NCBI RefSeq assembly: GCF_003977755.1
Contig: NZ_RQWN01000001.1
Coordinates: 884,995 to 948,994 of the forward strand
Length of the DNA stretch: 64,000 nt
DNA from: Haloterrigena salifodinae
Lineage (GTDB): Archaea > Halobacteriota > Halobacteria > Halobacteriales > Natrialbaceae
Direction: 5' to 3'
The translations under genes were made by a program, and so were the position numbers. Below, one piece after another: positions 26,461 through 31,376 of the stretch; the stretch's first letter is position 1; every line of letters starts with the position of its first letter. The notes under the pieces are model-generated. The model saw only the letters and a program-made list of their open reading frames with translations, was not told where the DNA came from and did no database searches.

Positions 26461-26680
26461 GGGACTCAGCCTCGAGGCCACGGTCGATTCACTGGCCTCG
26501 AGTCGAGGATTACGTCGCAGTTCGAACGTCCCGTCGCTCGAGGCGGACCGATAGGGAAGGGACTGCAGTGGCTCGAGCGACGGACGGTCGACCGAGTACC
26601 GAACTGACGACGAGTAACAACCCGAAACGAGGAACGACCTGAAAGCCGTCGCTCGTCGGGTGGAAATGAGGTATGAAGAG

Positions 26681-26802
26681 CGAGGCAGCGAACCGGGTCT
26701 CCCAGAGGCTCGCGCACTCCAGTACTCGCCGGGACGCAGGCGGGCTTAACGTCCGTGTTCGGGATGGGTACGGGTGGTTCCCCGCCGCTGTGGCCGCCTC
26801 AA
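26681..26802 (-). rRNA. rrf: 5S ribosomal RNA, unlinked to 23S
   Basis: On the minus strand the sequence TTGAGGCGGCC, CCCGTACCCATCCCGAACAC, CGTTAAGCCCGCCTGCGTCC and GTACTGGAGTGCGCGAGCC follows the haloarchaeal 5S pattern. The 5' TTGAGGCGGC pairs with the 3' GCTGCCTCG to form helix 1. Length is about 122 nt. The 5' and 3' ends are estimated from the helix. No 23S sequence precedes it within the 300 bp to the next gene, and no tRNA follows, so it is outside a normal rRNA operon. Confidence 0.9.
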
Positions 26803-26841
26803 CGCCGACCCGCGGAATCGAACCGCGGTAACGCCTGCGCC

Positions 26842-26901
26842 GGTGTGTTCACCCCGATATCAGGGGTACGTCGGTTTAACACTTCTGATCTTTCCGTCGA
26901 A
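26842..26901 (-). promoter_or_regulatory. Possible rRNA-type promoter for the lone 5S gene
   Basis: On the minus strand TTCGACGG (26901-26894) is followed by GTGTTAAAC (26882-26874) and then by GGTGAACACACC (26852-26841). Haloarchaeal rRNA promoters are known for a TTCGA element, a TTAA-containing box and a conserved initiation sequence. The spacing puts transcription start near 26850, about 47 nt before the 5S. The transcribed spacer contains CGCGG-TTCGATT-CCGCG, a tRNA T-arm-like hairpin that may direct processing. The rest of the region to 27077 shows no gene. Confidence 0.4.
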
Positions 26902-27077
26902 CGCCGACTCGGTTCGTTCCCGGCTCCTTTGGCGGTGCTCGGTTCCTGCTTGTCCGGCATCGTCCTCTTCAGCCGTCTTCTCGGCAATCGCTACTCAAGA
27001 TCGTTCCGGCGGACAACGGGTCCCTATCGAGATCGAACCGATGGCGGAGCCGCGACTGGACGTTCGAAGCGAAGGAC

Positions 27078-27097
27078 TATATTAATTGAATAATTAA
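27078..27097 (+). promoter_or_regulatory. TATA box and palindromic operator of the dehydrogenase gene
   Basis: CTATATTAAT starts at 27077-27078 and serves as TATA box about 33 bp before the ATG at 27117. TTAATTGAATAATTAA (27082-27097) has perfect 6-bp arms TTAATT/AATTAA around four bases, overlapping the box. A binding protein would block transcription. The same arms and spacing occur at 29203-29218. Confidence 0.6.
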
Positions 27098-27116
27098 TTA
27101 GCGACGAGAACTACTC

Positions 27117-27887
27117 ATGAACGGATTAGACGGGAAGACGGCCGTGGTAACGGGCGGCGGATCCGGAATCGGGCGCGCGTCGGCGAAACGCTTCGCCGAC
27201 GAGGGGGCGAACGTCGTCGTCGCGGACATCGACGCGGAGACCGGTCGCGAAACGGTAGATCTGATCGAGGACGCCGGCAGTAACGCGACATTCGTCGACG
27301 TCGACGTCTCCGACCTCGAGTCGGTCGAGCGAATGGTCGATGTCGCGCTCGACGCGTACGGGAGCCTCGATTTCGCGCACAACAACGCGGGAATTCTCAC
27401 GGGATTCGCAGACGTCGCCGACATCGACGCCGACGACTGGGACGCGCTCCTCGAGGTCAACCTGAAGGGAATCTGGACGTGCCTGAAGGCCGAGCTTGCC
27501 GTCATGGCGGAACGCGGCGGCGGGGCGATCGTCAACACGGCCTCTGAGTCCGGGCTCGTCGGGATGGGCGGTCTCGCCAGCTATTCCGCCAGTAAACACG
27601 GCGTCGTCGGACTCACGAAGACGGTCGCGCTCGAATACGCAACGCGGGGCGTGCGGGTCAACGCTATCGCACCGGGGCCGACGAACACGAACATCCAATC
27701 CAGGATGTCGGGAGACGGCGACCCCTCGAGCATGGAGTTCGACACATCGGCGATGATCGACGTCCCGATGGACCGCATCGCGGAACCGGAGGAGATGGCC
27801 GGCGCGGTCGCGTTCCTCTGTTCCGACGACGCTTCCTACATCACCGGGCACACGCTCCCGGTCGACGGCGGGCAGGCAGCGGACTGA
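27117..27887 (+). CDS. Short-chain dehydrogenase/reductase (classical SDR)
   Basis: 256 residues. The NAD(P) motif TGGGSGIG (12-19), the NNAG at 89-92, Ser143/145 and the YxxxK pair Y156/K160 are all present, followed by NAIAPGPTNT and the end SYITGHTLPVDGGQAAD. D37-x-D39 after the second strand favours NAD over NADP. It oxidises or reduces a secondary alcohol/ketone of unknown nature. It is convergent with the P450 gene (82 bp apart), and both carry the same palindrome at their promoters, suggesting joint catabolism of one hydrophobic compound. Confidence 0.93.
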   Translation: MNGLDGKTAVVTGGGSGIGRASAKRFADEGANVVVADIDAETGRETVDLIEDAGSNATFVDVDVSDLESVERMVDVALDAYGSLDFAHNNAGILTGFADVADIDADDWDALLEVNLKGIWTCLKAELAVMAERGGGAIVNTASESGLVGMGGLASYSASKHGVVGLTKTVALEYATRGVRVNAIAPGPTNTNIQSRMSGDGDPSSMEFDTSAMIDVPMDRIAEPEEMAGAVAFLCSDDASYITGHTLPVDGGQAAD

Positions 27888-27969
27888 CCGCTCAACCTCA
27901 TCGTCACGATTCGGAAAAGTTAGCGCGGCGATATCCAACCGTTCAGCGGTATCGGTGCCGCAGTTCGAG

Positions 27970-29199
27970 CTATGTGGTTCTACTCACGTCGCAAGGGAGC
28001 GACTCGAGACCGTAGAGGCCGTTCAACGGCTGGAGATCCGATAGATCCGCCTCCAGTCGTTCGAAGCGCTCGAGCAGTTGCCCCAGGGCGACGTCGGCTT
28101 CCATCCGCGCGAGGTGGGCGCCGAGACAGAAGTGAACCCCCGTCCCGAACGCCATGTGGCGGTTCGGATGCCGCTCGGGCCGAAACTCCTCGGGCGCGTC
28201 GAAGACGGCCGGATCGCGGTTCGCGGCGCCCAGCCAGAGTGTGACGACGTCGCCGGTTTCGATCCGTCGCCCGTTTAGCTCGACGTCCTCCACGGCGATC
28301 CGCTTCAGTGATTGGATCGGCGACCGGTATCGGAGCACCTCCTCGATGGCCCGTTGGCGGTCGACCGCTCCGGTTCGGATCGCGTCCGTCACCTCCGCCT
28401 CCTTGACGGACCAGATCGCGTTGGTGAGGAGGTTCGTCGTCGTGATGTTACCCGCGAGGAGCAACAGCATACAGAACCCGACCTGCTCGCCCCTGGTCAG
28501 CTTCTCCGCGTTCGCCGCGAGCGTGATCAGATCGTCCCCGCTGCCGCCGTCGCGCTCTTCAAGCAGCGTCGCGAAGTAGCCGCCCATCTCTCGCTGGGCC
28601 CGCTCCTGTTCCCGTTGCACCCGTTCCAGTTCCGCCTCGGTGTCATCTTCGGGTCGCGCGACAAGCGCGTCCGACCAGGCTTTGAACTCCTCGCGGCGTT
28701 CGGCGGGGATCCCCAGCAGTTCGGCGATCACGATGACGGGAAGCGGAGTCGCGAACTCGTCAACGAAGTCGAACTCGTCCTCGCCCTCGAGGTCGTCCAA
28801 CAACTCCTCCGTCACCGCCGCCACTCGCGGCTGATACTCCCGGATGGCTCCGGGCTGAAATCGTTCGTTGACGACCCCGCGGAGTCGAGTCTGTTCCGGC
28901 GGGTCGGTCGAGATCATCGTCTGCAGCATCGGGAGGTCCTCGTCACCGTCGCTGTCGCCGTCGTTCGAGGACTTCTCGGGATCGAACGCGCGGTTCGCCG
29001 TGAACGTATCGTGGTCTTTGAGCACGCGCTCGACGTCTTCGTACCGGAATACGTCCCACGTCTCTCGCTGCTCGTCGAAGTGGACCGGACGCTCCGCTCG
29101 CATCTCGGCGTACCACTCGAACGGCGAGAGTTGCCCCTCGCGGCTTCGGATCGCGTTCGGTGACCGGCCCACGCCGACGACTGAATCGGGGGACTGCAT
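27970..29199 (-). CDS. Cytochrome P450 (CypX/bacterial class)
   Basis: 409 residues. The heme loop FGTGVHFCLGAHLAR has axial Cys358. The I-helix LLLAGNITTTNLL has the AGxxTT oxygen-activation motif, and EVLRYRSP holds the ExxR pair. It is soluble, with no membrane anchor, so it should receive electrons from a ferredoxin or flavodoxin-like system. It hydroxylates an unknown substrate. ATG 29199 is 4 bases from the palindrome at 29203-29218. The TetR gene lies upstream on the same strand, 180 bp away. Confidence 0.94.
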   Translation of the reverse strand: MQSPDSVVGVGRSPNAIRSREGQLSPFEWYAEMRAERPVHFDEQRETWDVFRYEDVERVLKDHDTFTANRAFDPEKSSNDGDSDGDEDLPMLQTMISTDPPEQTRLRGVVNERFQPGAIREYQPRVAAVTEELLDDLEGEDEFDFVDEFATPLPVIVIAELLGIPAERREEFKAWSDALVARPEDDTEAELERVQREQERAQREMGGYFATLLEERDGGSGDDLITLAANAEKLTRGEQVGFCMLLLLAGNITTTNLLTNAIWSVKEAEVTDAIRTGAVDRQRAIEEVLRYRSPIQSLKRIAVEDVELNGRRIETGDVVTLWLGAANRDPAVFDAPEEFRPERHPNRHMAFGTGVHFCLGAHLARMEADVALGQLLERFERLEADLSDLQPLNGLYGLESLPCDVSRTT

Positions 29200-29202
29200 G
29201 AT

Positions 29203-29218
29203 TTAATTGACCAATTAA
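29203..29218 (-). promoter_or_regulatory. Palindromic operator at the P450 promoter
   Basis: TTAATTGACCAATTAA has perfect arms TTAATTG/CAATTAA around two bases, or TTAATT/AATTAA around four. It lies immediately before the P450 start, where transcription would begin or be initiated, so binding would repress. It matches the dehydrogenase operator in 14 of 16 positions. Confidence 0.6.
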
Positions 29219-29378
29219 TCAGTCATAGCTCTTTTGGTGTCGTACTCCGGCTGTGGAATTCGATCTGATACGCGGGAGAACCATCGCTTTCGCAGAGACG
29301 GATTCGGGACGAATCGAAGGGACTCGAGTCGACGTAGCGACCGAATGCGACCCAGACGCAATCGGAACTGGTCGCTCG

Positions 29379-29999
29379 CTAGCTCTCGCGAGAGATATCG
29401 GCGAGAATCTCGTCGACGATCGCCTGCACCTGATCGACGGCGTCAGAGCGATCCGTCGTCGTCTGCGTGTGGATCCCCTGTTTGAGGAGGAAGAGGAGGT
29501 GATCCGCGGTCTGTTCGGGATCGACCGGCCGGAACTGCTCGCGTTCGATACCGGCGCGGATGATCTGCACGACCGCGTCTCGGAGCCCGTCCTCCACTGC
29601 CGTCGTTTTACTACGGAAATCGTCGTCCCACGTCGCGTGCGCCCACAGTTCGACGAAAACCCGCGCGATCGCCGTCTCGATATCGGACGGCGGAGCGGAC
29701 ATCACCGCTTCGACCTGCGCCGGTTCCGGGTGCAGGATTTGGCCGACGAACCGTCGAAGTTCCGTCTCCGCGTCGGTGATCGGTTCCTCGGCCCGCTGGC
29801 CGAGGAATATCTCGACGAAGACGTCGAGCATCGACAGTAACAATTCATCTTTGCTATCGAAGTAGTGGTAGATCAGCGACGGGTTCTGGCCCAGTTCGTC
29901 GCCGATATCCTTGATTGAGAGGTCCGCGTACCCGTGTTTGACGAGCGCGCGAAACGCGGCCTCTCTGATTCGTTGTTCGGTTTCGGGCTGACCGCTCAT
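29379..29999 (-). CDS. TetR-family repressor
   Basis: 206 residues. The N-terminal tri-helical DNA-binding domain reads RIREAAFRALVKHGYADLS, then IKDIGDELGQNPSLIYHYF, which is a standard TetR helix-turn-helix ending in YHYF. The C-terminal ligand-binding domain is helical. It is a dimer that binds inverted repeats and releases them on ligand binding. Its position next to the P450, and the matching 16-bp palindromes at the P450 and SDR genes, make it their likely regulator. Its own promoter has no such palindrome. Confidence 0.92.
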   Translation of the reverse strand: MSGQPETEQRIREAAFRALVKHGYADLSIKDIGDELGQNPSLIYHYFDSKDELLLSMLDVFVEIFLGQRAEEPITDAETELRRFVGQILHPEPAQVEAVMSAPPSDIETAIARVFVELWAHATWDDDFRSKTTAVEDGLRDAVVQIIRAGIEREQFRPVDPEQTADHLLFLLKQGIHTQTTTDRSDAVDQVQAIVDEILADISRES

Positions 30000-30464
30000 A
30001 CTCGTACGTAGGGAATCCCCTCATAAGCCGATATCTAGTCGACCGTTGCGACGCACGCTTCCGAGCGGTACGATCTGGGTTGATGGACCGTCGAAGAGAG
30101 AGCTTCGGTCGTCTCGGTCGTCGAACGTCCGAAGGACCGACGGAGCGATCGACGCCAGCGATCGTGAAATACTAGGTTTCGTATATCTGTATGTGGTTTG
30201 TCGACCGCGAGAACGTCGTGTTTGACTCGCGTCGGTTGGTACTATCCGACGTCCAGAACCTGCTCGTAGGCTTCCGAGCTGTCCGGTACGCGACTTTTGG
30301 AAAACGAGAGACAACAGTGAGGCGAGAGGCGTGTATCTCGATCTCGGATGACACCGCGTCTCGAGGCCGCTCGAGACTGCTCGCTCTACGCGATCGAACG
30401 GGACTCGAGAACCAGAACGGAGGCGGAGTTCGCGCACGGACGCCGCGAGGAGTCGACCGGACCG
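30000..30464. other. Intergenic region without a recognised gene
   Basis: A plus-strand frame at 30191-30484 (97 codons) is basic and shows no family feature. TATA-like TTCGTATATC near 30178 might be a promoter, but no start product is identified. The TetR promoter must lie at its left end. Confidence 0.4.
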
Positions 30465-31376
30465 TCAGGCGACGAACTCGGTGATCGTCTCGAACGACTC
30501 GTCCTCGATTGAGTTGGCGAGGTCGTCGCTCTCGAGGTCGTCGGGGACGTGCTGGGGGTACTTCCGACGGAAGTAGCCCACGATGTTCGTCAGATCCCGC
30601 CGGAGGAACTCGCCGGCGTTCTCGTGGTCGGTCGGCACGGCCTGGGGCCAGTCGAAGATCTTCACGCCCTCCTCGTTGACGAAGACGTTGTACTCGCTCA
30701 TGTCCGCGTGGACATATCCGTTCGCGTGCGCGTTGGCGATCTCGGAGACGAGCAGATCGAGGACCCCCAGCACCTGATCGTCCTCGAGTCGCGTCCGGGA
30801 GAGTTCGACGCCGTCCATCTTCTCCATGACGATGGCGTGGCGGTTCTGGCCGATCGGCTGGGGGACCGAAACGTCCGGGTAGAGCTCTTCCAAGATCTCG
30901 TGTTCCCGCTCGGCGGCCTTCCGGGCGGTGTACATCCACGAGACGTGGTCGTTCTCCGAGGTGTAGTCGCGTTCCTTGTGGACCTCCCGGAAGTTCGTGT
31001 ACCCCTCGCGGTGGTACTTCAGGGCCAGGGGCTTGTACGAGCGCACTTCGTAGACGTCGCTCTCCTTGCCGACGCCGAGCGGCGAGCCGAACTCGCCGAT
31101 GGTATCGCGCTCGACGAGCGCGCGCAACGCGAGCGTATCGTACCCCTCGAATTGGAGGGTGTACCCCTCGTACTGAATCGTCTTCTTCTCGATCAACCCG
31201 CGTTTCAGACAGCGCTCGAGGCGGTAGTCGACCTCCTCTTCGGTCAGACTGGCGAACTTTGGGAGCTTCTCCCGCTGGACCCACTCCGAGAAGCGCATCC
31301 CCTGTTCGACCCCCGAGAGGAGATAGAAGTCTTCGTCCTCGAGCTCCGGGAGTTCCCCGGCGACGTTCCGCACCAT
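30465..31376 (-). CDS. rio2: RIO2-type serine/threonine protein kinase
   Basis: 303 residues. The N-terminal winged helix (FSEWVQREKLPKFASLTEEE) is joined to the RIO kinase fold: GVGKESDVYEVR as nucleotide loop, the Lys in LALKYH, the catalytic loop HADMSEYNVFV with its Asp, and the metal loop IFDWPQAVP. RIO2 acts in small-subunit ribosome maturation in archaea and eukaryotes. A GTTTTTACG box about 27 bp before the ATG implies a leaderless mRNA. It stands alone. Confidence 0.93.
   Translation of the reverse strand: MVRNVAGELPELEDEDFYLLSGVEQGMRFSEWVQREKLPKFASLTEEEVDYRLERCLKRGLIEKKTIQYEGYTLQFEGYDTLALRALVERDTIGEFGSPLGVGKESDVYEVRSYKPLALKYHREGYTNFREVHKERDYTSENDHVSWMYTARKAAEREHEILEELYPDVSVPQPIGQNRHAIVMEKMDGVELSRTRLEDDQVLGVLDLLVSEIANAHANGYVHADMSEYNVFVNEEGVKIFDWPQAVPTDHENAGEFLRRDLTNIVGYFRRKYPQHVPDDLESDDLANSIEDESFETITEFVA

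Follow-up and report, generated by a model that had tools for sequence, protein, structure and literature searches.

A 20-bp palindromic operator shared by a CYP109-like P450 gene and a dehydrogenase gene accompanies a neighbouring TetR-family regulator in haloarchaea

CYP102 combines a fatty-acid hydroxylase and its reductase in one self-sufficient fusion protein. In Bacillus megaterium and B. subtilis, a TetR-family repressor (Bm3R1/FatR) is encoded beside this P450 and is released by a hydrophobic substrate; the FatR operator is an 18-bp palindrome located at the promoter, and the regulon is very narrow (PMC3814354). The archaeal TetR-family regulator FadRSa from Sulfolobus acidocaldarius has semi-palindromic sites at only four genomic targets and represses a catabolic cluster of 23 genes (lipase and β-oxidation), from which acyl-CoA releases it (PMC6449355). 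Members of the CYP109 family occur in haloarchaea, and the characterized CYP109s oxidize fatty acids, terpenoids, norisoprenoids, and steroids (PMC9962201); CYP109B1, for example, converts valencene into nootkatol and nootkatone (PMC2717049). Little has been reported on how archaeal P450 genes are regulated: a TetR regulator is not mentioned in the survey of archaeal P450s (PMC9962201), a search of the open literature combining haloarchaea, TetR, and P450 listed no study of a TetR-regulated P450 among its matches, and none was found on the regulation of haloarchaeal CYP109.

We analyzed a 64,000-nt stretch of the 4.96-Mb genome of Haloterrigena salifodinae (C1:884995-948994), here called the window. 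It carries a cassette composed of an SDR-family dehydrogenase gene (27117-27887, plus strand, 256 residues), a CYP109-like cytochrome P450 gene (27970-29199, minus strand, 409 residues), and a TetR-family regulator gene (29379-29999, minus strand, 206 residues). Gene order and Pfam matches agree with the earlier note, which described the SDR and P450 genes as convergent with the TetR gene adjoining. The arrangement resembles Bm3R1/FatR-CYP102 in that the regulator gene lies beside the P450, a palindrome lies at the promoter, and the regulon is small. It differs in that the P450 is a stand-alone 409-residue CYP109-like protein accompanied by an SDR rather than a CYP102 fusion, in that two separate archaeal TATA/BRE promoters are used, whereas regulator and CYP102 share one operon in B. 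subtilis, and in that the regulator gene has no operator of its own. By analogy, the cassette would work like Bm3R1/FatR-CYP102 without being a member of that system, with its other P450 class and its two promoters. The few palindromic targets of an archaeal TetR-family regulator also recall FadRSa, which, however, governs a 23-gene cluster and not a P450-SDR pair.

The regulator matches TetR_N (PF00440, 51.3 bits for a cut-off of 24), with a helix-turn-helix that includes IGDELGQNPSLIYHYF, and TetR_C_6 (41.1 bits for a cut-off of 27). Its predicted structure (pLDDT 85) has the TetR-family fold with a standard all-helical ligand domain. The closest solved structure, by sequence and by predicted fold, is the Haloarcula marismortui TetR 3crj (Z 19.4 over 189 residues), whose identity of 24-25% is too low for an ortholog call and whose entry title gives no function or operator; FadR of Bacillus comes further down among the solved folds. 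The best solved matches of the P450 are 5l90, which we take to be CYP109E1, and CYP109B1 (4rm4/YjiB). Identity to the 5l90 chain reaches 42.0% over 383 aligned residues, above the approximately 40% that delimits CYP109, and the heme-thiolate cysteine (FGTGVHFCLGAHL) and the I-helix threonine (AGNITTTN) are both present. The I-helix acid-alcohol pair lacks its acidic member: where Bacillus CYP109 chains have Glu (AGNETT), the window's P450 has Ile (AGNITT), and nearly every close relative among the haloarchaea likewise has Ile or Val at this position (AGNITT/AGNVTT). The SDR (adh_short/adh_short_C2, PF00106/PF13561) contains TGGGSGIG and YSASK, corresponding to the classical TGxxxGIG and YxxxK motifs, and its nearest solved structures include cyclohexanol dehydrogenase and levodione reductase.

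The earlier note had pointed to a shared 16-bp palindrome, and both copies were found where it placed them, TTAATTGAATAATTAA at 27082-27097 ahead of the SDR and TTAATTGACCAATTAA at 29203-29218 ahead of the P450, with 14 of 16 bases identical. Exact matches to TTAATT-n4-AATTAA (TTAATTNNNNAATTAA) in the whole 4.96-Mb genome are restricted to these two, 2.1 kb apart, while 0.0006-0.003 would be expected by chance, depending on whether dinucleotide or base composition is used; the genome-wide abundance that, according to the earlier note, would have refuted the proposal is thus not seen. This rarity is a property of near-exact sites only, and looser matches carry no meaning: with up to two mismatches, 34 genomic matches stand near the background of 23 for the reversed control. 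Promoter comparison showed that the conserved element is in fact a 20-bp dyad, TTRATTRA-N-Y-R-N-TYAATYAA, at 27082-27101 and 29203-29222, whose center is displaced by 2 bp relative to the 16-mer, a partly overlapping register. The 16-mer was rejected as the operator, being broken in many SDR promoters, while the 20-bp dyad is symmetric in all promoter classes. Indeed, 33 promoters of relatives, from P450, SDR, and second-P450 genes, align without gaps into one symmetric 20-bp motif, in which the only freedom is between purines on one side and pyrimidines at the mirrored place. The SDR-promoter copy (plus strand, TTAATTGAATAATTAATTAG) has conserved counterparts in 12 other SDR promoters. The P450-promoter copy (minus strand) reads CTGATTAATTGGTCAATTAA, and the TetR gene has no operator copy of its own in the promoter comparison, so that no autoregulation through the 20-bp operator is visible.

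Both operators occupy the same place relative to the putative promoter elements. In the P450 promoter, a BRE-like CCAAAAG (29231-29237, minus strand) is followed by the TATA element CTATGA (29223-29228, minus strand), which is CTATAA in many relatives and abuts the dyad; the aligned relatives show the same succession of a CCAAAAG run, a CTATAA-like TATA, and the dyad without a gap. In the SDR promoter, alignment suggests a TATA element CTATA at 27077-27081 (plus strand), again abutting the operator upstream, and a transcription start at about 27105. The TATA-dyad spacing of SDR promoters is that of P450 promoters although the ATG lies some 10-12 bp further downstream, which indicates that the operator is fixed to the promoter and not to the gene. 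The sites had been described as lying on the SDR TATA box and at the start of the P450: the first location has to be corrected, since the operator is directly downstream of TATA in both promoters, and the second holds, with the dyad at -23 to -4 of the P450 start codon, as in 17/17 cassettes checked. The fixed distance of the dyad and TATA before the ATG implies that P450 transcription would start at or beside the ATG, giving a leaderless transcript. In Haloferax volcanii, most transcripts (72%) are of this kind (PMC4983044).

This geometry suggests a mode of action. A TetR homodimer bound to the 20-bp dyad would fill the space from TATA to start at the P450 and SDR promoters and exclude TBP, TFB, and RNA polymerase from both, so that steric exclusion is the simplest reading, and repression rather than another effect is what the operator position by itself points to. 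A minority of TetR-family proteins are activators, and the activator FasR is found among the weak family matches of the window's TetR; yet it is very unlikely that TetR acts here as an activator or dual regulator instead of a ligand-released repressor, given that in every promoter the site lies between TATA and start, where a bound protein would keep the initiation complex from assembling.

Conservation of the operator was assessed in about 20 relatives. TetR orthologs were sought in the order, where 24/392 genomes match at E ≤ 1e-35, and a TetR-profile search of genome contigs brought Natrinema zhouii and Halosimplex pelagicum into the set. With one or two exceptions, TetR orthologs of 52-99% identity adjoin such a cassette; no P450/SDR site lies near the TetR relatives of L070 (54%) and L176 (60%). 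Sought in these other haloarchaeal clusters, the operator turned out to be kept before P450 and SDR genes in at least six families and in any gene order: with convergent genes, with a P450-SDR operon and a single site, with a second P450 having its own site, or with the SDR alone. Natrinema zhouii, held out of motif derivation, has both sites at the predicted places. Some relatives carry a second P450, about 39% identical, either with its own main-type operator (L056 9470-10684, L058 9855-11045) or with a variant operator beside a paralogous TetR with the helix GQSSSLLYHYF (L063 2913-4115, L071 5815-7017).

Of the P450 promoters linked to a TetR ortholog, 17/17 carry the motif (up to two mismatches), as against 0/13 for P450 relatives (50-72% identity) from genomes without one. 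The corresponding Fisher value of 8e-9 overstates the independence of the data, as linkage to the TetR is correlated with position in the P450 tree, and the weight is carried by two co-switches described below. P450 identity does not explain the presence of the motif, because P450s 61-65% identical to that of the window have it when TetR is there and P450s 71-72% identical lack it when TetR is not. At the level of sequence comparison, these data show that the operator exists in a fixed position, that P450 and SDR are coordinated, and that operator and TetR are linked.

In the P450s of 71-72% identity without the window-type TetR, a different operator, TTNACTRA-n4-TYAGTNAA (C-type; for example TTGACTGAATAGTCAGTAAA), sits at the same place, and where the SDR has its own promoter (L140, L145), the P450 and SDR operators are both of this type. 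The switch occurred on two separate branches of the P450 tree, in different families. The C-type genomes G279, G369, and G166 share another TetR, orthologous among themselves (77-79% mutual identity) and about 24% identical to that of the window, with the recognition helix KSTAAVHYY instead of GQNPSLIYHYF; TATA and BRE are unchanged where the symmetric operator bases differ with the TetR. The window-type helix, QNPS[LI][IL]YHY[FY], is constant in 20 orthologs, down to 52% identity. In G250 (C3), a second P450 copy has a C-type operator, and that genome yielded no recognizable C-type TetR ortholog. A third group (L142-L144, L157) combines CCGAACGTTC-type half-sites with a nearby TetR with the helix KSKA(A/S)LYYHY. 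Three half-site/helix pairs can thus be listed: TTRATTRA with GQNPSLIYHYF, TTNACTRA with KSTAAVHYY, and the CCGAACGTTC-type with KSKA(A/S)LYYHY. On balance, we favor the view that the cassette forms a natural swap series, in which homologous P450/SDR promoters have exchanged their TetR several times, with a rewriting on each occasion of identical positions within a constant, equally placed 20-bp frame, so that the recognition code of haloarchaeal TetR proteins may be readable.

The two-promoter regulon under the neighbouring TetR, first proposed from the window's sequence, is supported by this conservation of the operator, its distribution, and its concerted change upon TetR replacement. Haloarchaeal genomes hold several TetR genes, with about 12 first-look candidates in that of the window, but a regulator other than the neighbouring one has little chance of being the reader of a genuine operator that tracks the TetR ortholog across at least six families and differs where TetR is replaced, that has no such sites in congeners lacking the ortholog, and whose variant palindromes adjoin the paralogous TetR genes. 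That the palindrome is a part of the basal promoter and an operator in looks only, as its AT-richness and the ever-adjacent TATA box might suggest, is hardly credible for a mirror-symmetric constraint across 20 bp that has two sites genome-wide against thousands of promoters and whose symmetric bases shift jointly with the TetR while TATA and BRE stay constant.

The same 20-bp frame is used elsewhere. Palindromes of this frame found at other places in the order mostly have a different TetR gene no more than 1.5 kb away. In the H. salifodinae genome itself (L158 6332-9992, contig C4), a palindrome TTGATTGAATATTCAGTCAA lies between a paralogous TetR gene (helix KSKSLLYHHY) and a divergent gene for an 896-residue protein, named by eye as RND/MMPL-like transporter, a second use of the frame. 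Another palindrome, TTGAATGAACGTTCAATCAA / TTGATTGAACGTTCAATCAA, is common among haloarchaea (L082-L104 and others, dozens of genomes), often adjoins TetR genes with the helix KS(T/K)SL(L/V)YHHY, and looks like an undescribed common class of TetR operator.

The cassette very probably represents a local TetR repressor controlling a CYP109-type P450 and an alcohol-oxidizing SDR, with induction by a hydrophobic substrate. For this local repressor, we infer the following course of events, from TetR binding and repression to the inducer and the succession of the two reactions. A small hydrophobic molecule, substrate or product of the P450, would free the operators of TetR, leading to co-expression of P450 and SDR; the P450, drawing its electrons from a ferredoxin whose gene lies elsewhere, would hydroxylate this molecule, and the SDR would convert the alcohol product to a ketone or aldehyde. 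The hydrophobic nature of the substrate is suggested by the CYP109-like P450, and an alcohol-oxidizing SDR acting after such a P450 would fit. No further conserved gene, such as a ferredoxin or transporter gene, was found beside the cassette in the loci compared.

The cassette is flanked by a 5S rRNA gene on the left (26680-26801, minus strand) and by a RIO2 gene, assigned by Pfam, on the right (30465-31376, minus strand). The congeners G001 and G004 lack the region corresponding to 26893-30454 (approximate ends), which comprises the SDR, P450, and TetR genes and the two operators. Their 5S gene adjoins RIO2 at a distance of about 0.6 kb, and no operator site with up to one mismatch was found genome-wide in either. 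The cassette is patchily distributed, present in 9/125 genomes of the family, and a plasmid search located it in Halostagnicola larsenii and Halocatena salina, both of which the set of relatives already included. Its absence from the same site in the congeners and its patchy distribution indicate an accessory unit that has probably moved horizontally. No convincing direct repeats, as a mark of a mobile element, were found at its ends. In L064 (7132-7320) and L058 (8446-9561), the P450 is truncated or its start codon lost, and the TetR and the operator, or a decayed remnant, persist. A tRNA was considered at the left edge and discarded, as ARAGORN and Rfam detect none; the segment ahead of the 5S gene (26804-26882, minus strand) resembles a degenerate tRNA in its fold, with a CCGAC...GTCGG stem and a T-arm GCGGTTCGATTCCGC, and the congeners have the same fold. 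In haloarchaea, a tRNA-like leader that tRNase Z cleaves is a known feature of 5S rRNA. The 5S gene is solitary, with no 23S gene adjacent.

With its precise operator, small regulon, and clear ends, the cassette could be used as an inducible promoter for haloarchaea. Ligand screening of the TetR could reveal the inducer, and with it what an orphan CYP109 of haloarchaea naturally oxidizes. Finally, the repeated concerted swaps amount to a natural experiment on the co-evolution of TetR regulators and their operators, for which the record of replacement is unusually clear.
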